Virus record (IMG/VR): IMGVR_UViG_3300046311_000263
Span: 1 to 64,000 of that record
From: a virus
Direction: 5' to 3' (one strand)
Length of the DNA: 64,000 bases
Made by a program: the position numbers and the translations under genes. Below, in pieces: positions 1 to 8,591 of the stretch. A model generated the notes under the pieces. It saw nothing but the letters and a program-made list of their open reading frames with translations. It was not told where the DNA came from and ran no database searches. Positions within the stretch are counted from its first letter, which is position 1. Each line of letters begins with the position of its first letter.

Positions 1-2
1 TG

Positions 3-134
3 CTACAGTTCGCTAAAATGTGGAAGCCCAGCGATACTGATGTAGCTAATAGACTAACAATAAAAGTAGCTGCTTTAGAAAAAGAAGTATCAGATTATAG
101 ATGGCAAGAGAGTCCTGGACAAGGTGCCTATTAA
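3..134 (+). CDS. C-terminal end of an unknown protein (cut by window edge)
   Basis: An open frame runs in from the left edge and stops at a TAA at 132-134. The 43 visible residues end in SPGQGAY and include a short charged helix-like stretch (LEKEVSDYRWQE). The start lies outside the window. I do not recognise the family. It is followed by a strong promoter at 156-184, so it probably closes the preceding transcription unit. Confidence 0.6.
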   Translation, partial: LQFAKMWKPSDTDVANRLTIKVAALEKEVSDYRWQESPGQGAY

Positions 135-155
135 TCGAGCGTAAAAAATTCTCAC

Positions 156-184
156 TTGATTGCGCAGTTATATTAGTCTATAAT
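156..184 (+). promoter_or_regulatory. Sigma-70 type promoter of the tRNA/small-gene unit
   Basis: TTGATT at 156-161 and TATAAT at 179-184 are separated by 17 bases. The predicted transcription start is near 191, giving a leader of about 17 bases before the ATG at 208. It would drive the first small gene and the tRNA array behind it. Confidence 0.8.
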
Positions 185-207
185 AATTCTTTGATCGGGA
201 TAGTTCA

Positions 208-489
208 ATGAATACATATGTAGTTGCTTTTTTGTCGTTTCACACTAACGAGATCCTAATGCAAGAAGTACTTGCAGAATCTAAGCTAGAAGCCGCGCTC
301 AAGTATCTTAATGATTCCACTCAGTGGGACGAAGTTGTAGCAGACTCATTCGAAGATCTACACGAACAGCTTGCCAACGCCGATGCCGTACTAGAAGTGC
401 TTCAGATCAATAACTCGCGGGCCGGGCGGTCAGGTTCTGGATTGCAAATCCAGCTAGCGGAGTTCAACTCTCCGGCGAGTCTCCATTAA
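208..489 (+). CDS. Small acidic hypothetical protein whose 3' end is a tRNA gene
   Basis: 93 codons from ATG 208 to TAA 487-489. Residues 1 to about 68 look like ordinary protein with an acidic helix (SFEDLHEQLANADAVLEVLQ). The last 26 codons are read straight through the tRNA-Cys gene at 412-485, so the C-terminal Arg/Ser/Gly-rich stretch is just translated tRNA. No family is recognised. The promoter at 156-184 lies just upstream. The stop overlaps the next start as TAATG. Either the protein is real with a tRNA-encoded tail, or the frame stays open there by chance; the N-terminal part looks coding. Confidence 0.6.
   Translation: MNTYVVAFLSFHTNEILMQEVLAESKLEAALKYLNDSTQWDEVVADSFEDLHEQLANADAVLEVLQINNSRAGRSGSGLQIQLAEFNSPASLH
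412..485 (+). tRNA. tRNA-Cys (anticodon GCA), embedded in a coding frame
   Basis: Acceptor strand 412-418 pairs with 475-481 except for the first A-C pair. The D arm is short. The anticodon stem CTGGA/TCCAG holds loop TTGCAAA, giving anticodon GCA. The T arm is CGGAG-TTCAACT-CTCCG. Discriminator T and an encoded CCA end at 485. The whole tRNA lies inside the 3' end of the 208-489 frame, so maturation of the tRNA would destroy that message. Confidence 0.85.
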
Positions 490-587
490 TGCAAGTTATC
501 TCATACAAGCCAGAAGAGCCTAAAGTATTTATTGTGTGGTACTTTGACCAGTATGGGTTTCTTTACGTTAAAACATTGCGTGTGTAG
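489..587 (+). CDS. Tiny hypothetical protein (32 aa) ending inside tRNA-Gly
   Basis: ATG at 489-491 overlaps the previous stop (TAATG). The frame gives a 32-residue aromatic-rich peptide (VFIVWYFDQYGFLYV). Its stop codon TAG at 585-587 is formed by positions 8-10 of tRNA-Gly. Coding potential is plausible because of the tight overlap, but the length is small and no family is recognised. Confidence 0.4.
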   Translation: MQVISYKPEEPKVFIVWYFDQYGFLYVKTLRV

Positions 588-651
588 TTCAATGGTAGAA
601 TAGGACGTTGCCAACGTCTAGACGAGAGTTCGATCCTCTCCACCCGCACCA
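578..651 (+). tRNA. tRNA-Gly (anticodon GCC)
   Basis: Acceptor GCGTGTG pairs with CACCCGC apart from one T-C mismatch. Anticodon stem GGACG/CGTCT encloses TTGCCAA, anticodon GCC. The T arm GAGAG-TTCGATC-CTCTC is perfect. Discriminator A and an encoded CCA are present. It lies directly upstream of the MazG-like gene. Confidence 0.9.
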
Positions 652-663
652 GCTAAGTATATA

Positions 664-1014
664 ATGACATTTGTAAAAGTTGAACAAAATTTTCTAGGAA
701 ATGTTTATGACATTTACGATATTAGTTTATTGCGAGAAACTAAGTCACTAGAAGCGATAGGACTTAAACTAACCGAAGAAGTTGGTGAAGTAGCAGAGCA
801 AATTAATGTAATTTGCGGAAATATTAACAAAGACCTAAAAGAGCCAATCGAAGGTGAAATTGCAGATCTATTAAATTGTGCTCTTTGTATTTTGTTCAAG
901 GCATACCCAGAACATAATGTATATGAGATTCTGGCAAAGCTTAATATGTCTATGGAAGCTAAAAATAAGAAGTGGGTTAGTAACCTAACTTCTACCAAAA
1001 TTACGAGTCTGTAG
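664..1014 (+). CDS. MazG-like nucleotide pyrophosphohydrolase
   Basis: 116 residues with the all-alpha NTP pyrophosphatase signature: a first acidic helix with EEVGEVAEQ (about residues 39-47) and a second with EGEIADLLNCAL (about 64-75), the metal-binding E-x-x-E and E-x-x-D pairs of the MazG superfamily. Such enzymes hydrolyse NTP or dNTP to the monophosphate and pyrophosphate; phage copies are proposed to clean the nucleotide pool or alter alarmone levels. It sits between tRNA-Gly and a structured, tRNA-like stretch. No strong Shine-Dalgarno is seen before the ATG. The family is fairly sure; the substrate is not known. Confidence 0.8.
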   Translation: MTFVKVEQNFLGNVYDIYDISLLRETKSLEAIGLKLTEEVGEVAEQINVICGNINKDLKEPIEGEIADLLNCALCILFKAYPEHNVYEILAKLNMSMEAKNKKWVSNLTSTKITSL

Positions 1015-1016
1015 GA

Positions 1017-1095
1017 AGTACAACTACAGTCTGAGCTGAGGAAGTCGATCGACGGAGTGTTCAGCCCACAAATGATTAGATCGATTCGTAGTACA
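1017..1095 (+). other. Structured intergenic RNA candidate
   Basis: No open frame. Several complementary segments are present: GCTGA with TCAGC, AGTCGATC with GATCGATT (the two interleave, as in a pseudoknot), and an outer GTA-CTAC with GTAGTAC that has a bulge. It is tRNA-sized and directly precedes a tRNA-like element, but I cannot fold it as a tRNA. Confidence 0.3.
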
Positions 1096-1166
1096 GAACA
1101 TAGTAGCTCAGTTGGATAGAGTGTCGCGACGGTGAAGGTCGGTGGTTCGAGCCCACTCTATGTTCG
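1096..1166 (+). tRNA. tRNA-like element, His-like acceptor, abnormal anticodon arm
   Basis: AACATAG (1097-1103) pairs with CTATGTT (1158-1164), and G1096 can pair with C1165, the extra G-1:C73 pair typical of tRNA-His. The D arm (GCTC/GAGT) and T arm (GGTGG-TTCGAGC-CCACT) are normal. Only 17 bases lie between base 26 and the T stem, about 4-5 too few. The best hairpin is CGAC-GGTGAAG-GTCG, which lacks the universal T33 and leaves no variable loop. CCA is not encoded. It may be a decayed tRNA-His or a tRNA mimic. Confidence 0.5.
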
Positions 1167-1188
1167 TCTTACATTTAAAATTTCTTAC

Positions 1189-1217
1189 TTGAAAGTGCTG
1201 GTTTTTCAATATATAAT
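1189..1217 (+). promoter_or_regulatory. Sigma-70 type promoter
   Basis: TTGAAA at 1189-1194 and TATAAT at 1212-1217 with a 17-base spacer. The start site would be near 1224, about 20 bases before the ATG at 1245. Confidence 0.75.
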
Positions 1218-1244
1218 GTATTTATACATTGAAAAGGCAACAAT

Positions 1245-1529
1245 ATGCGCAAAATCTTTTTTACATACCATACCGGCTTTTGTGGCTCTGACGGCTACGA
1301 AATGGTCGAATTTGATGACGAGGTTACTAACGAAGAGCTAGATCAGTACGCTTACGAAGGTGCTATTTCTAACGCGGAAATGTATGGTATCTACGCTACA
1401 GAGTCTGCTACTGATAATCACGACGACGATGACGACGATGAAGAATATATCGGAGACGAGTATTCTGACAACATCGAAGGTTACTGGTGTGACTACGTTG
1501 CTGAAAAGCACAAAGGGTACATTACGTAA
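1245..1529 (+). CDS. Acidic hypothetical protein with poly-Asp run
   Basis: 94 residues starting 28 bases after a good -10 box. The sequence is strongly acidic with a run of six Asp followed by Glu (about residues 60-67) and aromatic residues toward the C-terminus (YWCDYV). Such small acidic phage proteins are often DNA mimics or host-enzyme inhibitors, but nothing here proves that. The family is not recognised. A second open frame (1505-1756) begins just before its stop in the -1 frame and has no start codon of its own. Confidence 0.7.
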   Translation: MRKIFFTYHTGFCGSDGYEMVEFDDEVTNEELDQYAYEGAISNAEMYGIYATESATDNHDDDDDDEEYIGDEYSDNIEGYWCDYVAEKHKGYIT

Positions 1530-1756
1530 GCAATTTTGATCTCAAGAGCGCAGTTAAGAACTCAGTAAAATTTGAAAGGTACCGTAAGGGTAACCTATGG
1601 TACCTAGCAAGGGACGATCAGTATAATATCCTGTCGTTTCCGGTTCCTATTGAAGATACGGGTGATGCTACCTTTGAAGACGTAGATAAAGGTATCTATT
1701 TTATGCGTTATATACGCAAGCATCTGGAAACAATTAACAACGGTTCCTTAGCATAG
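1505..1756 (+). CDS. Open frame without a start codon, overlapping the acidic gene
   Basis: After a TGA at 1502-1504 this frame stays open to TAG 1754-1756. The protein looks genuine (FERYRKGNLWYLARDD and FPVPIEDTGDATFEDVDKG), but there is no early ATG, GTG or TTG in frame. It lies in the -1 frame relative to the acidic gene and overlaps its last eight codons, so a ribosomal frameshift or an unusual start could express it. The 3' end runs 15 bases into tRNA-Met. Alternatives are a decayed gene or an indel. Function unknown. Confidence 0.4.
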   Translation, partial: KAQRVHYVSNFDLKSAVKNSVKFERYRKGNLWYLARDDQYNILSFPVPIEDTGDATFEDVDKGIYFMRYIRKHLETINNGSLA

Positions 1757-1818
1757 TCGGCCTAATGCAGCGGTTTCATACGCCGCGATCATGTGTTCAA
1801 ATCACATAGGAACTACCA
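1742..1818 (+). tRNA. tRNA with CAT anticodon (Met or Ile2)
   Basis: Acceptor GGTTCCT pairs with AGGAACT; the D stem is GCAT/ATGC; the anticodon stem GCGGT/GCCGC holds TTCATAC, anticodon CAT; the T arm is ATGTG/CACAT. Discriminator A and CCA are encoded. CAT can be elongator Met, initiator, or an Ile tRNA needing lysidine; sequence reading alone does not separate these. The first 15 bases overlap the 1505-1756 frame. Confidence 0.85.
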
Positions 1819-1824
1819 AATAAT

Positions 1825-1899
1825 ACCTCTTTAGTTCAATGGACAGAATAGGGGTTTCCTAAACCTTTGGTGCATGTTCGATTCATGCAAGAGGTACCA
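1825..1899 (+). tRNA. tRNA-Arg (anticodon CCT), CCA fused to the next start codon
   Basis: Acceptor ACCTCTT/AAGAGGT, D stem GTTC/GAAT, anticodon loop TTCCTAA with anticodon CCT, and a normal T arm. The final A of CCA at 1899 is also the A of the ATG of the next gene. The 3' acceptor strand contains GAGG four bases before that ATG, so it can act as its ribosome binding site. Confidence 0.85.
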
Positions 1900-2165
1900 T
1901 GTCAAAGCTATTCTCTACAGTAGGCACTCTGACCCTAGACTCAGAGCTAACTTTTGGTAAGTACGAAGGCTGCACTGTATATGACGCACTTAGTGCAGAT
2001 CCAACCTACATAGCCTGGTTATATGTAGAAGCAGGAAAATCCTTTAAAGAAGAAGTTAAAAAAGTTCTAGTTACCAGACTTCTAGAACTATGTAACGATA
2101 AGAAGCTCTCTAAAACTAAACACAAGAACTATGAACCTTGGAACCCTGATGATGTTCCCTATTAA
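1899..2165 (+). CDS. ExoX C-terminal-like small protein
   Basis: 88 residues. Residues 16-45 (LTFGKYEGCTVYDALSADP followed by TYIAWL) match the pattern F-G-K-y-x-G-x-x-x-x-x-x-x-x-D-P-x-Y-x-x-W, the short domain found at the C-terminus of exodeoxyribonuclease X and as free-standing phage proteins; its role is probably nucleic-acid binding. There is no nuclease domain. The ATG shares its A with the end of tRNA-Arg, and the only Shine-Dalgarno (GAGG) is part of the tRNA acceptor stem. Domain call fairly confident, function inferred. Confidence 0.7.
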   Translation: MSKLFSTVGTLTLDSELTFGKYEGCTVYDALSADPTYIAWLYVEAGKSFKEEVKKVLVTRLLELCNDKKLSKTKHKNYEPWNPDDVPY

Positions 2166-2170
2166 ACAAA

Positions 2171-2425
2171 ATGAATAAACTACAAATGTCTACAAATATG
2201 CAATCCGCCCTAGATGCCGTTCGCGGCCGTCAGTTCATCGTAGGATCTATTGATCCTACAGGCACGTTTTCTATCAGTGCTCGTCCTACTACTCACCCTA
2301 ACAGGATTCTTGCCGACCGCGAGTCTGCGCGTCTAGCTGGTATGTATCCTGGTAAAGCCTTTATCGTGATGCAGCTGACCGGTGGTTCTATGGTTCCTGC
2401 AGCTCCTGCAATTCAGGCTCTGTAA
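2171..2425 (+). CDS. Hypothetical protein
   Basis: 84 residues starting 6 bases after the ExoX-like gene. It contains RGRQFIVGSIDPTGTFSISARP and ends in an Ala/Pro-rich tail (MVPAAPAIQAL). Codons are richer in C and G than in its neighbours, as in the highly expressed genes further right. No obvious Shine-Dalgarno; it may be translated by coupling. Family not recognised. Confidence 0.6.
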   Translation: MNKLQMSTNMQSALDAVRGRQFIVGSIDPTGTFSISARPTTHPNRILADRESARLAGMYPGKAFIVMQLTGGSMVPAAPAIQAL

Positions 2426-2431
2426 AGTTTT

Positions 2432-2507
2432 GCCCCTGTAGCTGAGAGGTTCAAGCGCTGCTTTTACACGGCGGGGTATGTCAGTTCGAGTCTGACCGGG
2501 GGTACCA
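2432..2507 (+). tRNA. tRNA-Val (anticodon TAC)
   Basis: Acceptor GCCCCTG/CGGGGGT (first pair G-T), anticodon stem CTGCT/GGCGG around TTTACAC giving TAC, normal T arm, discriminator A and encoded CCA. It starts seven bases after the previous stop codon. Confidence 0.85.
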
Positions 2508-2513
2508 AAATAA

Positions 2514-2693
2514 GCTGTAACCAGATGACAGTATCCGCTTTAGCGATAATTGTTACGTTCAGCCGTCGCGCATCCGCAGACGTTAAACTATGAGGAAGGC
2601 AAGCTGGAATAGACAGCCAGTCAACGTGAGACTTAAAATCCCAACAGATCATTGGGTCAACTCTTGGTAGTTATCAGACTAAACTACCACAAT
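2514..2693 (+). other. Non-coding structured stretch with decayed tRNA-Leu-like core
   Basis: No credible frame on the plus strand. Hairpins are visible: GTAAC/GTTAC around 2517-2555 with an inner CGC-TTTA-GCG, CCCAA/TTGGG near 2640-2657, and TGGTAGTT/AACTACCA near 2665-2690. Between them, a GGAATAGACAGC segment followed by GAGACTTAAAATCCC resembles the D arm and anticodon loop (TAA) of tRNA-Leu, but the D loop is short, the T arm lacks one T and no acceptor pairs well. Probably a degraded or divergent tRNA. Confidence 0.35.
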
Positions 2694-2769
2694 CCTGCTT
2701 TAGCTGATGTGGTCATAGCGGCGGTCTGAAGAGCCGTTGAACTTGGTTCGATTCCAAGAGGTAGGGCCA
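2694..2769 (+). tRNA. tRNA-Phe (anticodon GAA)
   Basis: Acceptor CCTGCTT/AGGTAGG, anticodon loop CTGAAGA with anticodon GAA in stem GCGGT/GCCGT, T arm ACTTG-GTTCGATT-CCAAG region intact, discriminator G and CCA encoded. Its CCA is the first three bases of the 17-base inverted repeat that follows. Confidence 0.8.
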
Positions 2770-2851
2770 TAATTTTAGTATACAGCGTAAGCGCTTACGT
2801 CTCTAATCAGGCTCAGCGACCTCCGACTGAGATTGTATACTAAAATTATGG
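2767..2851 (+). repeat. 17-bp perfect inverted repeat with two inner hairpins
   Basis: CCATAATTTTAGTATAC (2767-2783) is exactly complementary to 2835-2851. The enclosed 51 bases contain the palindrome CGTAAGCGCTTACG (2785-2798) and the hairpin CTCAG/CTGAG (2812-2831), so the RNA can form a three-way junction. The left arm includes the CCA of tRNA-Phe and the right arm includes the first two bases of tRNA-Asp. Confidence 0.8.
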
Positions 2852-2924
2852 CGCATTCGTATAGAGGTCATTACTGCGGATTGTCTATCCGCTTACGGGA
2901 GTTCGATTCTCCCATGCGTCGCCA
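2850..2924 (+). tRNA. tRNA-Asp (anticodon GTC)
   Basis: Acceptor GGCGCAT/ATGCGTC, D stem GTA/TAC, anticodon stem GCGGA/TCCGC around TTGTCTA giving GTC, T stem GGGAG/CTCCC, discriminator G and encoded CCA. Confidence 0.9.
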
Positions 2925-2930
2925 AATAAT

Positions 2931-3004
2931 GAGAGTGCTTAGCTCATAAGTAGAGCAGACCGTAAGGTATCGCGAGCAGAATCAGAACCTGCACACTCTC
3001 GCCA
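2931..3004 (+). tRNA. tRNA-like element with CCA but no anticodon loop
   Basis: A perfect 7-bp acceptor GAGAGTG/CACTCTC with G and an encoded CCA, a D arm (GCTC/GAGC) and a T-arm-like hairpin GCAGA-ATCAGAA-CCTGC (closing pair mismatched). Only 18 bases replace the usual 21-22 between base 26 and the T stem. They form GACC-GTAA-GGT, a hairpin capped by a GNRA-type tetraloop, so there is no 7-base anticodon loop. It is either a decayed tRNA or a non-decoding tRNA mimic. Confidence 0.5.
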
Positions 3005-3011
3005 AAACAAT

Positions 3012-3086
3012 TGGTGCTTTAGTATATTCTGACAATATACACTCCGGGGTGTATATTGGGGCCCTGAAAAGGGTCGGTGCCAGCCA
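3012..3086 (+). tRNA. tRNA-like element dominated by a 10-bp hairpin
   Basis: The acceptor TGGTGCT pairs along its whole length with GGTGCCA when wobbles are allowed, followed by G and an encoded CCA. A T-arm-like hairpin GGCCC-TGAAAAG-GGGTC sits in the right place. Instead of D and anticodon arms there is a perfect 10-bp hairpin CAATATACAC/GTGTATATTG with loop TCCGGG. No standard anticodon can be read. This is the second CCA-tailed tRNA-like element in a row. Confidence 0.45.
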
Positions 3087-3092
3087 AACAAC

Positions 3093-3180
3093 GGAGTCTT
3101 AACGTGTATGGACCACGGTACGCTTGGAAAGCGTTACGCTTGGGCAACCGGGTGGGGTTCGATTCCTCAGATATCCGCCA
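3093..3180 (+). tRNA. tRNA-Ser (anticodon GGA), weak acceptor stem
   Basis: Anticodon stem ACGC/GCGT with loop TTGGAAA (anticodon GGA), a long variable arm as in class II tRNAs, T arm TGGGG-TTCGATT-CCTCA and encoded CCA. The acceptor strands GGAGTCT and GATATCC pair only at the outer three positions, so the stem is poor as written. Confidence 0.65.
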
Positions 3181-3193
3181 AAATTAAACTACA

Positions 3194-3478
3194 ATGTCTA
3201 AACTACTTTACGAAATTCATATCACTTGCTATACTAGCCAAGCCAAGCAGGCGGCCTTCGCCGCAGCTGAACTACACTGGAAGACTAGCGAGATTATGCG
3301 TGATCCCGTTCTAGGTAATGATACATACTACTATTTAACTAAATATGCTGCTACTTTGGATCAGGCCATAGAGTTTCTAAGCGCTGCATGTCATACACTT
3401 CAATTCAAATATAATGTCATTATCGTACGAGAAAAGATTGAACATATCGTGTACGATATTAGACATAGACCAAAATGA
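3194..3478 (+). CDS. Hypothetical protein
   Basis: 94 residues beginning 13 bases after tRNA-Ser. It shows alternating helix and strand character (LLYEIHITCYTSQ; FKYNVIIVREKIEHIVYDI) but no motif I recognise. Its stop overlaps the start of the phosphoesterase gene (ATGA at 3475-3478), so the two are probably translationally coupled. Confidence 0.65.
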   Translation: MSKLLYEIHITCYTSQAKQAAFAAAELHWKTSEIMRDPVLGNDTYYYLTKYAATLDQAIEFLSAACHTLQFKYNVIIVREKIEHIVYDIRHRPK

Positions 3479-4017
3479 GCAAAAATATTTTTCTAATTGC
3501 AGACTACCATTTTGGGCACGAAAGCCCCTATGTTAAGTTTAAACGGGCCGACGGTTCTCCGTTAAGGCCCTTTTCGTGTTCTTTGGAAGCTGACGAACAC
3601 ATGGTTCAGGAACACAACAAGCTGGTAAAAGCAGGTGACCGCGTCTACGTATTAGGAGACGTAACTTTTCATAAAAAGCACCTCCACTGGCTTGAAAAGA
3701 TGAATGGCAATAAAGTCCTAATTAAAGGTAACCATGACCTCGAAGACCTATCAGTTTATCAACGATATTTTGATGATGTTAGGGGTGTTCATCAGTTTGA
3801 TGGTTTGCTTCTTACCCATATTCCTGTGCATCCTGCTAGCCTGGCTCGCTGGGGCTTCAATGTACATGGGCATCTTCATGCTAATCGTGTAATGAGAATG
3901 CACGGTAGTACTAATACCGATGCCACCGACGATAGGTACTTTTGCGTATCCGTTGAGCAAACAAATTACAAACCAATGTCACTTGAAGAGGTTAAAAAAT
4001 GGAAGCCAAAGCAGTAG
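3475..4017 (+). CDS. Calcineurin-like metallophosphoesterase
   Basis: 180 residues with the metal-binding motifs of the calcineurin superfamily in order: D-x-H (ADYHFGH, residues 9-14), GDV (about 62), GNHD (about 85), a lone His (LLTHIP, about 115) and GHLH (about 132). The compact size matches the phosphoesterases common in phages, which hydrolyse phosphomonoesters or diesters; the true substrate cannot be told. ATGA overlap with the gene before it and a start codon inside its 3' end (3999) point to a tight operon. Confidence 0.85.
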   Translation: MSKNIFLIADYHFGHESPYVKFKRADGSPLRPFSCSLEADEHMVQEHNKLVKAGDRVYVLGDVTFHKKHLHWLEKMNGNKVLIKGNHDLEDLSVYQRYFDDVRGVHQFDGLLLTHIPVHPASLARWGFNVHGHLHANRVMRMHGSTNTDATDDRYFCVSVEQTNYKPMSLEEVKKWKPKQ

Positions 4018-4163
4018 ATTTTACTGACAAGTCCTTACTGAATATTCGTAAGGATATCCTAACTGAAGAAATTAAAGAAGTTGAATATACCCTTGCCAGC
4101 ATGTATAAAGAATGGCATGAACTACTTAAGCAGTTAAAAACCTATGAGACTTGCGCTACTTAA
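3999..4163 (+). CDS. Small helical hypothetical protein
   Basis: 54 residues from ATG 3999, which overlaps the end of the phosphoesterase, to TAA 4161-4163. Upstream is GAAGAGG, a usable ribosome binding site. The protein is largely one charged helix (ILTEEIKEVEYTLASMYKEW). Overlaps on both sides support it being real. Family unknown. Confidence 0.6.
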   Translation: MEAKAVDFTDKSLLNIRKDILTEEIKEVEYTLASMYKEWHELLKQLKTYETCAT

Positions 4164-4296
4164 TAACGAAAACAATACACTCTCAATCTATGAGGGAAAT
4201 ACTTTGGTTGCAATGTTCGAGGCGCCAAACGACTACAAATACACGCCTGAAGAGATAGAGCAGGCCCGACTAGAAGAATATAAGGAATTAGCTTGA
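4144..4296 (+). CDS. Small hypothetical protein upstream of thyX
   Basis: 50 residues from ATG 4144, overlapping the previous gene, to TGA 4294-4296. It has a beta-like start (LALLNNENNTLSIYEG) and a helical acidic end (TPEEIEQARLEEYKEL). Its stop overlaps the TTG start of the ThyX gene as TTGA. No known family. Confidence 0.6.
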   Translation: MRLALLNNENNTLSIYEGNTLVAMFEAPNDYKYTPEEIEQARLEEYKELA

Positions 4297-4961
4297 CAGT
4301 ATCAACAAAACTAGTAGCTCTAACGGTACCTCTAGTGGAAGGCATAGAGACACCAGATGAATTCATTGCTTATGCTGCTAGAGTATCGAACCCTGCTAAT
4401 CAGCATAATACTTTGACTGCTCCAGGCCTTATTGCTTATCTTATTAACAACAAGCACTGGTCGCCATTAGAAATGGTTAGTGCCACCCTAGAGGTTACTA
4501 CGACTAGAGATATTGCTCGACAAATGCTAAGGCATCGCAGTTTCTCTTTCCAGGAATTTAGCCAAAGGTACGCAGAAGCTACGCAACTAGGACATACTTT
4601 CAGAGAAGCTAGACTTCAAGATGATAAAAATCGTCAGAATTCTATTGAAACTGACGATAAAGAATTAGAAGCCTGGTGGCAAGCCCGTCAACTACAAGTG
4701 TGGACGCTAGCTACAGAAGTTTACAGTGAAGCCCTAGCTAAGGGTATTGCTAAAGAGCAGGCACGTGCTCCTCTACCAGAAGGTATTACTAATTCTAAGT
4801 TATACATGGCTGGCACTATTCGTTCTTGGTATCACTACTGTGACTTACGAAAAGGCAACGGTACTCAGCGTGAACATGCCGCTATTGCATTAAGCGCTAT
4901 TTCTGCTCTTGCCCCCAAGTTCCCCTCAATTTTCAACAACCCTAAAATTAAATTAGTATAA
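4293..4961 (+). CDS. thyX: FAD-dependent thymidylate synthase
   Basis: 222 residues. The ThyX signature R-H-R-x-x-S-x-x-x-x-S-x-R-Y is present as RHRSFSFQEFSQRY (about residues 79-92), followed by the helical half with conserved R and E residues (KEQARAPLP). It makes dTMP from dUMP with methylene-tetrahydrofolate, NADPH and FAD. The start is taken as TTG 4293 because AAGGA lies seven bases upstream and it overlaps the previous stop (TTGA). It works with the ribonucleotide reductase, dUTPase and MazG-like genes in dNTP supply. Confidence 0.93.
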   Translation: MTVSTKLVALTVPLVEGIETPDEFIAYAARVSNPANQHNTLTAPGLIAYLINNKHWSPLEMVSATLEVTTTRDIARQMLRHRSFSFQEFSQRYAEATQLGHTFREARLQDDKNRQNSIETDDKELEAWWQARQLQVWTLATEVYSEALAKGIAKEQARAPLPEGITNSKLYMAGTIRSWYHYCDLRKGNGTQREHAAIALSAISALAPKFPSIFNNPKIKLV

Positions 4962-5359
4962 TGTCTAATAAATCGCCTAAGGGCAGCGGTCGTAAGGCAG
5001 GTCTTACTCGTTACAAAACCTCCAATTCTTACGAGACCAATCGTAAGCGTAAGCTGGCTCGTGCGCTGAAGCGCAACCCGGAAAATAAGCAAATTGAGCT
5101 GGCACTACAAGATAAGGGAATTCCTAGGAAGACTCCTAAAGTGCCGGTTTGGAGCCATTCATCTATTAGAATTGCACAACTAATGAAGCAATTCATGGGC
5201 AAGTACAATAAGAATATTCTTAGTTCCGATATTGACGCATGGCTTGTGGCTATTAAGGATCATAAGGACCAGTTTCTGCCTAAGAAAGTTATTGAAGCTA
5301 AAAAGCAAGGCAGCTTGTTTTCCATTGGTCAGCGTGTTCGTATTGTGCTACCTAGCTAA
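4961..5359 (+). CDS. Basic hypothetical protein
   Basis: 132 residues with a very basic N-terminal third (KSPKGSGRKAGLTRYKTS; RKRKLARALKRN) that suggests nucleic-acid binding, and a helical C-terminal half. Its start overlaps the thyX stop (TAATG) and its stop overlaps the next start (TAATG). Family not recognised. Confidence 0.65.
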   Translation: MSNKSPKGSGRKAGLTRYKTSNSYETNRKRKLARALKRNPENKQIELALQDKGIPRKTPKVPVWSHSSIRIAQLMKQFMGKYNKNILSSDIDAWLVAIKDHKDQFLPKKVIEAKKQGSLFSIGQRVRIVLPS

Positions 5360-5616
5360 TGTTAGTAGCTTATCTAATGTTTTGTCTAACTACTGCAATA
5401 GTAGCTCATATATACTTATTTAGTCACATACTCTCCGTTGTTGAAGACGTAGACGGTAAAAAAAATAATCTCATAGAGTATAAGGGTATTACAGTTACAG
5501 TTATATTTTTACTAAGCCTTGTTCTGGCTCCCGTACTGGTAGGGATATTAGTATCTGACTATAACAGTGACGTCTTTATTGATGCTACTATTGAAGCATT
5601 TTTAAATAAGGATTAA
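5359..5616 (+). CDS. Small membrane protein
   Basis: 85 residues with two hydrophobic segments, about residues 2-24 (LVAYLMFCLTTAIVAHIYLF) and 44-66 (ITVTVIFLLSLVLAPVLVGI), joined by a charged loop. It probably sits in the host inner membrane. TAATG overlap with the gene before it. Role unknown. Confidence 0.65.
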   Translation: MLVAYLMFCLTTAIVAHIYLFSHILSVVEDVDGKKNNLIEYKGITVTVIFLLSLVLAPVLVGILVSDYNSDVFIDATIEAFLNKD

Positions 5617-5626
5617 AAAATATATA

Positions 5627-5655
5627 TTGACACGCAGTGGTCAATAGTCTATAAT
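5627..5655 (+). promoter_or_regulatory. Consensus sigma-70 promoter
   Basis: Perfect TTGACA (5627-5632) and perfect TATAAT (5650-5655) with a 17-base spacer. ATTGAC at 5626-5631 and GTCAAT at 5639-5644 form an inverted repeat over the -35 box and could be an operator. It drives the gene at 5682 and probably the two tRNAs behind it. Confidence 0.88.
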
Positions 5656-5681
5656 ATATACTTAAATCGGAAAAACTTTAA

Positions 5682-5951
5682 ATGAAAACTTTCACGTTTA
5701 CGTATACTAAAGACAACGGCGATACCTCTGAGCGCACTTTGCTAGCACTAGTTACTCCTGGTGGTACTATGTACGCTGGTATTGACCTAAGTTCTATGCC
5801 TCCGGAAAAGGCTCAGAACTTTGCAGCAGACGCAGCTAATCTGTATGATGAATACTTGGCAGATCTAAAGGCTCTTCAAGTAGAGTACGACATTAAGCAT
5901 AACTATCGTCAGTTTAAAGCCGAAAATATTTCAGATCTGACAGAAATCTAA
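5682..5951 (+). CDS. Hypothetical protein under a strong promoter
   Basis: 89 residues. The start shows a beta-hairpin-like KTFTFTYTKDNGDTSERTLL, then a helix-rich end. It sits 27 bases after a perfect -10 box, so it should be strongly expressed, and tRNA-Trp follows within a few bases. Family not recognised. Confidence 0.65.
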   Translation: MKTFTFTYTKDNGDTSERTLLALVTPGGTMYAGIDLSSMPPEKAQNFAADAANLYDEYLADLKALQVEYDIKHNYRQFKAENISDLTEI

Positions 5952-5954
5952 ATC

Positions 5955-6032
5955 AGCGACTTGCAGGTGTTACGGCAGCATACCGGCCTCCAAAGCCGTG
6001 TGGTCGGAGTTCGAATCTCTGGCTCGTCGCCA
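5955..6032 (+). tRNA. tRNA-Trp (anticodon CCA)
   Basis: Anticodon stem CGGC/GCCG with loop CTCCAAA (anticodon CCA), T arm CGGAG-TTCGAAT-CTCTG, and G plus encoded CCA. The acceptor AGCGACT pairs with GCTCGTC at five of seven positions. The D arm TGC/GCA is short. Confidence 0.75.
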
Positions 6033-6039
6033 ATAATTA

Positions 6040-6113
6040 GCTCTTATAGTACATTGGTAGTACAGTTGCCTTGTAAGCATCAGAAGTTAGTTCGATTCTA
6101 ACTTGGAGCACCA
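6040..6113 (+). tRNA. tRNA-Thr (anticodon TGT)
   Basis: Acceptor GCTCTTA/TTGGAGC (one mismatch), D stem GTAC/GTAC, anticodon loop CTTGTAA giving TGT, T stem GTTAG/CTAAC, and A plus encoded CCA. GGAG of its 3' acceptor strand (6105-6108) lies eight bases before the ATG at 6117 and is the only candidate ribosome binding site for that gene. Confidence 0.88.
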
Positions 6114-6116
6114 TAT

Positions 6117-6365
6117 ATGACAACTAAACCATTCCGAACCGTAGACTTAGATAAATTAAGTCAGTATTATGTTTTTTCTGAAAATGTAATACAGAAAACT
6201 CTATCTATTGCAGGTGAACAAGAGGTATCTCCAGAGGTCCTCCCGGATAGTTTGGTACCGACAAATTCTCTCTTGTATTTGTGTGTGTCTTATTGTATAA
6301 TGTACGACAAGCTATTAGAATATGAGCTTGTGGCTCACCCAAAACCCAACAAAACAATACATTAA
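6117..6365 (+). CDS. Hypothetical protein
   Basis: 82 residues beginning three bases after the CCA of tRNA-Thr. The only Shine-Dalgarno-like sequence is inside the tRNA acceptor stem. The protein has a hydrophobic helix (LLYLCVSYCIMYDKLLEY) and no recognised motif. A promoter for the next gene lies inside its 3' end. Confidence 0.6.
   Translation: MTTKPFRTVDLDKLSQYYVFSENVIQKTLSIAGEQEVSPEVLPDSLVPTNSLLYLCVSYCIMYDKLLEYELVAHPKPNKTIH
6273..6301 (+). promoter_or_regulatory. Sigma-70 type promoter inside a coding region
   Basis: TTGTAT (6273-6278) and TATAAT (6296-6301), spacer 17. It would start about 65 bases before the gene at 6374, which is closed by its own terminator. Confidence 0.6.
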
Positions 6366-6373
6366 GGTAGTAA

Positions 6374-6736
6374 ATGACGACTTGGACCCCAGAACTTAAA
6401 AAAGAAATCGTAGAAGCTTATCTTACTTCGGATCCCACTGCGGAAACGAATGCAGAAATCATGAAGGACATTGCTGACAGTTACGAAGATATGACTCCTA
6501 ACGGTGTTCGTCAAGTACTGGTGCAGGCAAATGTCTATGTTAAGAAAGAAGTTGCAACAGGCACTACTGCAGGCAAGAAGACAGACGGAGAAGGCGCTAA
6601 GCGCGTATCCAAAGAATCTCAGCTAGAGACACTACGCGTGGCTATTAAGGCTCGCGGCAAGACTGTAGACGAAGAGATTGTGTCTAAGATGACCGGCAAG
6701 GCTGCTGCATATTTCGTTACCGTTCTAGGTAACTAA
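6374..6736 (+). CDS. Myb/SANT-like DNA-binding protein
   Basis: 120 residues. The N-terminal part (TWTPELKKEIVEAYL, then IADSYEDMTPNGVRQVLVQA) reads like a three-helix SANT/Myb-type helix-turn-helix with the opening Trp, similar in pattern to the repeats of the protein at 9416. The middle is Lys/Gly-rich and probably a flexible linker. Codons are more G/C-ending than in neighbours, and the gene has its own promoter and a strong terminator, which together suggest high expression. A DNA-organising or regulatory role is inferred. Confidence 0.6.
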   Translation: MTTWTPELKKEIVEAYLTSDPTAETNAEIMKDIADSYEDMTPNGVRQVLVQANVYVKKEVATGTTAGKKTDGEGAKRVSKESQLETLRVAIKARGKTVDEEIVSKMTGKAAAYFVTVLGN

Positions 6737-6743
6737 TAGATAC

Positions 6744-6769
6744 AGGCTGCCTATGTGCAGCCTTTTTTG
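6744..6769 (+). terminator. Intrinsic terminator
   Basis: AGGCTGC and GCAGCCT form a 7-bp stem with a six-base loop, followed by a run of six T. It ends the unit for the gene at 6374 and lies only a few bases before the next ATG. Confidence 0.88.
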
Positions 6770-6771
6770 TT

Positions 6772-7360
6772 ATGGCAACACGTAAATCAAAAAACGGTGA
6801 CACCGAACGACTAGACGATGCCAGTATGGATCGTGTAATAGAACTACTTGCCAATAAAGGTACTAAGAAAGACGCCTGCGCAATACTAAATATTTCATAT
6901 AATACTACCAGGCTAGGTACCCTGATAGAGAAATACTTGGAGAAAAAGCGCAAAGACGCTGAAAAGCGTGCAGAACGTAGAGGTAAACCCGCTACGACTG
7001 CTGAAATTGTATTCGCCATTGAAGGCTATCTAGAAGGTCGTACTGTAGAGTCTATTGCAGATTCTCTTTATCGGGGCGCTACGTTTGTAAATAGCATTCT
7101 GAGAACTAACGGAGTACCTTTAAGAAGCGTGCCACAAGACTACTTCAAGCCTGGACTAGTTCCAGATGAAGCCTGTAGAGACTCTTTTAAAGTGGGAGAA
7201 AAAGTCTACAGCATGCGATATGATTCTCTGGCCGTAATTCGTAGTGAATTTAAACCTGGCATTTACTGTATTTACCTAATGTCTGATAGGCAAAAACAAT
7301 TTGCCTATCAAGAAGCTTGTGAACTAGCTTCTCTAGACCATCTTAGAAAGCTAGGCGTAA

Positions 7361-7368
<8 letters not shown>
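6772..7368 (+). CDS. Helix-turn-helix DNA-binding protein
   Basis: 198 residues. Two helix-turn-helix-like blocks are visible: about residues 17-45 (MDRVIELLANKGTKKDACAI, then LNISYNTT) and about 75-105 (TTAEIVFAIEGYLEGRTVES with ADSLYRGATFVNSIL). A basic helix (EKKRKDAEKRAERR) separates them. The C-terminal 70 residues look like a small beta domain (VGEKVYSMRYDSLAVIRS). It may regulate transcription. The family is not named with certainty. Start ATG follows the terminator closely. Confidence 0.6.

Positions 7369-8591
<1,223 letters not shown>

Follow-up and report, generated by a model that had tools for sequence, protein, structure and literature searches.

Why should a phage keep a tRNA-like gene that has no anticodon arm? 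The question arises in a tRNA cluster at positions 1-6200 of the window, as the whole stretch of 64,000 nucleotides analysed here is called, which is the first part of a 77,375-bp virus record of IMG/VR (IMGVR_UViG_3300046311_000263). In this cluster a first-pass annotation had singled out three genes, here elements 1, 2 and 3, as possible non-decoding tRNA mimics. For element 1 this reading stands, on the grounds of compensatory changes in a relative and of many similar elements in viral contigs, whereas decay or drift is possible for elements 2 and 3, because no homologue of either was found. Useful relatives are L009/L012 (an identical contig), L010, L011 and L083, the last of which is syntenic with the window at about 65-70% DNA identity. 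Element 1 and its 5' neighbour, RNA 'a', are composed as follows:

1018-1095, plus strand: RNA 'a', H-type pseudoknot adjoining element 1 on its 5' side, conserved in L083 (4834-4924)
1035-1040 with 1060-1065, plus strand: helix A of RNA 'a'
1041-1044, plus strand: GAAG of RNA 'a'
1045-1050 with 1079-1084, plus strand: helix B of RNA 'a'
1096-1165, plus strand: element 1, anticodon-less tRNA-like (Rfam RF00005, 40.7 bits), conserved in L083 (4925-4993)
1096-1103 with 1158-1165, plus strand: acceptor of element 1
1106-1109 with 1119-1122, plus strand: D stem of element 1
1124-1127 with 1132-1135, plus strand: stub of element 1, with GACG at 1128-1131
1136-1140, plus strand: variable loop of element 1
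1141-1157, plus strand: T arm of element 1

Element 1 possesses the defining features of a tRNA, namely acceptor, D arm and a TTCRA T arm, in the layout GAACATAG-TA-GCTC-AGTTGGATA-GAGT-G-TCGC-GACG-GTGA-AGGTC-GGTGG-TTCGAGC-CCACT-CTATGTTC. The acceptor, GAACATAG/CTATGTTC, is well paired over 8 bp, as had been noted, the D arm is normal, and the variable loop AGGTC is followed by the T arm GGTGG-TTCGAGC-CCACT; no CCA is encoded. The Rfam tRNA model scores the element above its gathering score of 29, and ARAGORN makes no call at this place. What is absent is the 5-bp anticodon stem with its 7-nucleotide loop: only 13 nucleotides lie between the D stem and the variable loop, and they are best read as the 4-bp stub TCGC-GACG-GTGA, because this stub covaries in L083. 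The T33-less loop of seven nucleotides first described for element 1 thus has to be given up, but no normal anticodon arm had been mis-folded, as the Rfam alignment leaves 8 residues for the 13 positions of the anticodon segment. By this feature, the anticodon-less elements are tRNA-like structures that stand outside the decoding tRNAs. A piece of a transfer-messenger RNA (tmRNA) is ruled out for element 1, which has a full D stem, unlike the tRNA-like domain of tmRNA, and there was no Rfam match to tmRNA in positions 1-8000 of the window, nor any RF04321 match in a search of the whole record. The folding energy of element 1 is unremarkable (z-score -0.6), and therefore the case for it is a comparative one.

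The copy in L083 lies in the syntenic position and has the acceptor GAAGTGGG/CCCACTTC and the stub GTGC-GACG-GCAT, so that four acceptor pairs and two stub pairs are changed on both sides and none is broken; neither free mutation nor loss of acceptor pairing is seen. RNA 'a' has diverged in the same manner: helix A is GCTGAG/TTCAGC in the window and ACCGGG/TTCGGT in L083, helix B is TCGATC/GATCGA and CCAGTT/AACTGG, respectively, with double-sided changes in 6 of the 12 pairs and no pair broken, and the loops GANGGAGTG (1051-1059), CCACAAANNATTA (1066-1078) and GAAG are invariant. Counted on the alignment of these two sequences, all 33 pairs of RNA 'a' and element 1 together are standard in both, 12 of them changed on both sides, which was matched by none of 500 shuffles, and slid partners pair at 26-46%. 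Because 12 double-sided changes have left no pair broken, decay is refuted for element 1, which is, to judge from this pattern of substitution, maintained by selection.

RNA 'a' has no Rfam match at E-values up to 1, and an exact search of viral contigs for its motif gave true matches only in the window, its twin and L083, the others being chance or coding. It was considered as a mini RNase P RNA, having a similar topology and GAGGAAG/CACAAA loops, and this was rejected since Rfam gives no match and a P4 bulge is not conserved. A theta or other ribozyme seems less likely, there being no Rfam match; for an HDV-like theta ribozyme, the Rfam models of the HDV family gave none at E up to 1.

As other relatives carry tRNAs or a CCA-ended stem before the same gene, the slot of element 1, compared across these contigs, retains a tRNA-type acceptor structure, decoding or not. 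L010 has neither 'a' nor element 1 and carries a tRNA-Gly at that place, L011 has the 7-bp stem CGGGGCC/GGCCCCG followed by ACCA with no anticodon arm, and in distant relatives that share the downstream gene, the tRNA just upstream is specific for Gln (L227), Pro (L229) or Val (L233, L236).

Element 1 is, by structural likeness, a member of a widespread and largely overlooked set of phage tRNA mimics. Viral contigs were scanned for a canonical D arm with a T arm following too soon, that is for tRNA-like sequences without a normal anticodon arm, and at least 150 distinct elements were found with at least 6 of 7 acceptor pairs and at least 4 of 5 T-stem pairs. Their lengths are bimodal. In a class of 57-59 nucleotides, the anticodon arm has given way to a few nucleotides, to which a normal variable loop with a final C is attached. 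In a class of about 66-70 nucleotides, a 4-5-bp stem with a tetraloop (TTCG, GAAA, GCAA, GTGA, GGAA, GACG and others) stands in the place of the arm, many middles being exactly such a stem and loop. In 51 sequences of the shorter class with less than 80% mutual identity, 99.0% of the stem pairs form, against 67.3% with shuffled partners, but this figure comes from acceptor-filtered elements and the unfiltered count is fairer: among the matches listed, at least 6 of 7 acceptor pairs are present in 80% of the elements with middles of 9-11 nucleotides and in 5% of mismatched partners. Ordinary tRNAs reach 98%, which is why some elements of the class may be decaying, and some viral elements with middles of 12-17 nucleotides pair poorly (45% with at least 6 of 7 acceptor pairs among the matches listed). 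By these counts, acceptor, D and T arms are retained in many independent viral elements whose anticodon arm has been removed or replaced by a tetraloop-capped stem.

Of the short-middle set, 8% encode a CCA end, as compared to 84% of ordinary tRNAs with the same D and T motifs, and when only loci holding both kinds are counted, the figures are 19% and 52%. Around 83 of 144 viral loci with such an element, among the matches listed, the DNA examined contains no ordinary tRNA. A similar pattern was found in 52 stretches of 257 gigabases of bacterial and archaeal species genomes; after filtering for stems, about half of the stretches were artefacts of assembly Ns and were discarded, and several others adjoin phage genes. 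A single partner gene for the class was looked for and rejected, as the neighbours are diverse, with terminase and endolysin genes being the commonest.

The class occurs also in cultured phages. One element (GGTTCTTTAGCTCAGTTGGTAGCTAACCGTTCGGTCGCTGGTTCGAGTCCAGCAAGAACC) is common to the lactococcal phages bIL309, P335, TP712 and D2544, where it has no RNA annotation and, in bIL309 and D2544, comes after the lysin gene. Polaribacter phage Danklef_1 has a 58-nucleotide element that is annotated as "tRNA-OTHER, Undet (NNN)" and is its sole annotated tRNA, and Vibrio phage K476 has an element with CCA inside a tRNA tandem. As a separate observation, a tandem of tRNA-like sequences in L467 (3648-4016) has its anticodon arms replaced by an insert of about 105 nucleotides, a 4-bp GACG stub resembling that of element 1, and an insert of about 80 nucleotides; these are natural tRNA scaffolds.

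The position beside RNA 'a' has parallels, as a boundary position next to another RNA is found in the window and L083, in L477, in L499 and in the four lactococcal phages. In L477, an S. porci prophage, the GOLLD RNA ends at 3814 and an anticodon-less element begins at 3818, with 3 nucleotides in between. In related phages, GOLLD is followed by a tRNA-Phe with a very similar acceptor (Javan565), a tRNA-Ser (a GBS phage), a 113-nucleotide tRNA-like sequence (Javan584), or a divergent tRNA-like sequence (phiARI0285-1, Javan345) for which there was no call by ARAGORN or Rfam. In the prophage L499, a tRNA-Gln, ROOL and an anticodon-less tRNA-like element follow each other edge to edge, and in the lactococcal phages a hairpin ends 0-10 nucleotides before the shared element, with at least three of the four hairpins differing in sequence. 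An 8-bp helix ends at the element start in 26 of 130 elements (20%) and at 77 of 873 control positions (9%), an about twofold difference; z-scores of upstream structure over all elements were not decisive.

The fold, its conservation, the missing anticodon arm, the occurrence of such elements in many phages and, in several, a position behind structured RNAs are all features of the sequence itself. The explanation that we tentatively favour for this combination, at somewhat less than an even chance, is that element 1 is a former tRNA without its anticodon arm that is kept as a processing module and not for decoding. It is favoured because the parts that have been kept, acceptor, T arm and the elbow of D and T arms, are those that are read by RNase P and RNase Z, and because the lost anticodon and the usually unencoded CCA serve decoding and charging. 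Acceptor and T arm together are the classic minimal substrate of RNase P. Element 1 would thus be retained for its tRNA elbow, host RNase P would cut at its 5' end (1095/1096), and the cut would release RNA 'a' with a defined 3' end, parted from the downstream sequence. We infer that RNase P makes this cut (or RNase Z one at the 3' end) and that it is the upstream RNA which counts as the product. The same module, with separate origins in different phages, could also be employed 3' of further RNAs, GOLLD and ROOL among them. Phage tRNA mimics of this kind probably mark cut sites in longer viral RNAs rather than aiding protein synthesis. The general form of the proposal, that phages of many hosts keep anticodon-stripped tRNA folds as portable 3'-end modules read by RNase P, with GOLLD and ROOL as clients and 'a' as a further, unnamed client, is a more tentative suggestion. 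Several findings weigh against these proposals. The conservation of element 1 is that of two divergent sequences, which is strong for structure and thin for phylogeny; 50 other records with such elements gave no GOLLD or ROOL match, so that these RNAs explain few cases and were rejected as general partners; the GOLLD of L193 ends in a terminator-like hairpin; and upstream of many elements no structured RNA can be recognised.

The main rival, which we regard as unlikely though not to be dismissed lightly, is that the product is the tRNA-like RNA itself, acting on its own as a decoy or regulator by binding enzymes that recognise the elbow or the acceptor, such as the CCA-adding enzyme, tRNA-modifying enzymes or acceptor-directed toxins, while offering no anticodon that could be cut or could misread codons. 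It would fit the Danklef_1 element as the only annotated tRNA of its phage, the loci without an ordinary tRNA, and the lactococcal element, of which several phages with different flanks have near-identical copies and which sits between the lysin gene and the prophage end, a site of cargo genes. However, most elements encode no CCA, also when compared within the same loci, and no defence or toxin gene was seen to be linked to them, though such genes were not looked for systematically. Among the uses that had been suggested at first, a processing spacer fits best; a decoy for anticodon nucleases is unlikely because the target loop of the enzyme is absent, and a decoy for CCA addition or aminoacylation fits element 1 poorly because it encodes no CCA.

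It is improbable that RNA 'a' and element 1 form one composite RNA of about 150 nucleotides, a riboswitch-like or ribozyme unit with a tRNA-like 3' domain. The two are adjacent, are conserved together in the window and L083 and are both absent from L010, and 'a', in its topology and its loops (helix A, GAAG, helix B, CCACAAA), bears a faint likeness to the RNase P core, but anticodon-less elements elsewhere stand alone or behind unrelated RNAs, a bulged U as in helix P4 of RNase P is not conserved, and no RNase P RNA is reported by Rfam. Plain decay, with former tRNA genes drifting away after losing the anticodon arm, has if anything a slightly smaller chance as the general explanation. It would account for elements 2 and 3, which lack a conserved homologue and have lost the T-loop, and for the poorly pairing longer middles, but is contradicted by the covariation of element 1 and 'a', by the acceptor pairs kept in elements with 9-11-nucleotide middles and by the many middles that are exact tetraloop-capped stems.

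The role predicted by the processing reading has precedents: plant mitochondrial t-elements and the mascRNA of MALAT1 are tRNA-like signals for RNase P and RNase Z that mature a neighbouring RNA, but these are eukaryotic or organellar, whereas the elements described here are encoded by phages. The tRNA cluster of phage T4 yields the stable non-tRNA RNAs C and D, a parallel that is drawn here by description only. As compared to canonical tRNAs (RF00005), element 1 is alike in its acceptor, its D and T arms and its variable loop, but in the anticodon-less elements the anticodon arm is absent or reduced to a 4-bp stub with a tetraloop, and CCA is usually not encoded. GOLLD and ROOL have been described near tRNA islands, and tRNAs or pseudo-tRNAs occur in GOLLD, according to the parts of the reports considered here (PMC12286853, PMC6582537). 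The pseudo-tRNA of Mycobacterium GOLLD (PMC6582537) and the GOLLD-linker tRNAs (PMC12286853) are likewise non-standard and tied to a phage-derived GOLLD RNA, but lie within GOLLD or its linker, whereas the elements here would be a 3' module; anticodon loss and recurrence are not discussed in those parts of the two reports. Theta ribozymes, which are HDV-like, have been described as a processing device beside phage tRNAs and proposed to serve end maturation (PMC10879173). They resemble 'a' as small structured RNAs beside viral tRNAs, but are self-cleaving and located 3' of tRNAs, whereas 'a' lies 5' of a tRNA-like element and has no Rfam ribozyme match. A search of the open-access literature, with subscription papers outside it, found no paper on anticodon-less phage tRNA-like elements.

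Phage tRNAs are usually explained by codon supply, and a non-decoding class would mean that a part of the phage "tRNA" content serves another purpose, concealed by an annotation that omits such elements or calls them "tRNA-Undet". If the processing reading is true, it would give a concrete answer to how the 3' ends can be made in GOLLD and ROOL, which form RNA cages. The cultured phages of the non-pathogens Lactococcus (bIL309, P335, TP712) and Polaribacter (Danklef_1) make the class directly testable.

Elements 2 and 3 are located further downstream, in a tandem with two other tRNA-type genes:

2850-2924, plus strand: ordinary tRNA-Asp(GTC) 5' of element 2 (ARAGORN; Rfam 51.4 bits)
2931-3004, plus strand: element 2, cloverleaf with 7-bp acceptor and GCCA, in the tandem tRNA slot after tRNA-Asp (fold z-score -2.25)
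3012-3086, plus strand: element 3, cloverleaf whose 7-bp acceptor is wobble-rich and ends in GCCA, in the tandem slot after element 2 (fold z-score -3.7)
3094-3180, plus strand: tRNA-Ser-like(GGA) with imperfect acceptor and GCCA, read and folded from the sequence, not called by ARAGORN or Rfam

Their acceptors are paired as first described, and both end in GCCA, which confirms that two of the three elements encode CCA; the T arms that had been assigned to all three are borne out only in element 1, as neither element 2 nor element 3 has a TTCRA T-loop. Element 2 has 7 Watson-Crick acceptor pairs, a D-like arm, the 3-bp stub ACC-GTAA-GGT and, in place of the T arm, a hairpin of 4 bp with the 9-nucleotide loop AATCAGAAC. 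Element 3 has several G-U pairs among its 7 acceptor pairs, a 4-bp arm at the D position and an 11-bp hairpin in the middle; where a T arm would stand, it has a 6-bp hairpin with a GAAA loop. None of 200 shuffles of element 3 was as stable. The two are spaced by about 6-7 nucleotides from each other and from tRNA-Asp and the tRNA-Ser-like gene, as are real tandem tRNAs here, and they may be more derived examples of the kind of element 1. A slot like that of element 2 is not due to chance, because 7-bp acceptors with NCCA that ARAGORN does not call lie within 12 nucleotides of a same-strand tRNA 123 times in sense and never in antisense, at 198 loci with tRNAs. Most of these are odd but decoding tRNAs, since 101 of 118 distinct ones have a canonical-like anticodon arm in a loose test that element 2 passes too, through its D arm.

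In L011, the slot of element 2 is held by a tRNA-like gene with a CTA (amber suppressor) anticodon (5911-5990). Viral tRNAs with a normal anticodon arm and non-TTCRA T-loops (GATCTCGGAAT, GGATCGATACC, GGAGCGTTACC) recur and are missed by ARAGORN, examples being L228 4848-4922, L172 8066-8140 and L219 11135-11209, among others. CCA-ended hairpins of 35-40 nucleotides lie between tRNAs in L117 (minus strand, 4450-4487) and L178 (11279-11318) and share the conserved loop GGCGTA...GATAAGTA with different stems.

The record is that of a tailed phage, with genes for the large subunit of terminase, a major head protein, DNA polymerase, helicases and ribonucleotide reductase, and by DNA it has no close named phage, ThyX and tRNA genes giving the only matches. 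ARAGORN calls nine tRNAs in the cluster at positions 1-6200, and two further features lie there:

1189-1217, plus strand: sigma-70-type promoter-like site TTGAAA-17-TATAAT for the next gene (1245-1529), 11 of 12 consensus positions
2767-2851, plus strand: long spacer stem from tRNA-Phe to tRNA-Asp (fold z-score -6.6)

A sequence similar to the promoter-like site precedes the same gene in L010, L011 and L083. At the base of the spacer stem, the CCA of tRNA-Phe pairs with the 5' GG of tRNA-Asp, and the pairing is kept with different sequence in the window, L010 (about 4289-4378) and L083 (about 7085-7191). Another structured RNA lies between tRNA-Val and tRNA-Phe in the window (2514-2693) and in L011 (5274-5562), both copies having a GTCGCGC(A/G)TCCGC hairpin, the sequence TGAGGA and, on stems that differ, a GAATAGA loop; for the window copy, Rfam gives no match at E-values up to 1. 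In L083, an open reading frame resembling GIY-YIG homing endonucleases (7359-8110) sits between tRNA-Asp and a metallophosphoesterase gene, the 5' part of which seems frameshifted. Permuted tmRNA genes (RF04321) are found in the phage tRNA clusters of L083 (2420-2682), L011 (3066-3319), L193 (2138-2400), L237 (2584-2853) and L012 (1316-2095), the identical contig that reaches upstream of window position 1, where the match of 780 bp seems to contain a large insert.

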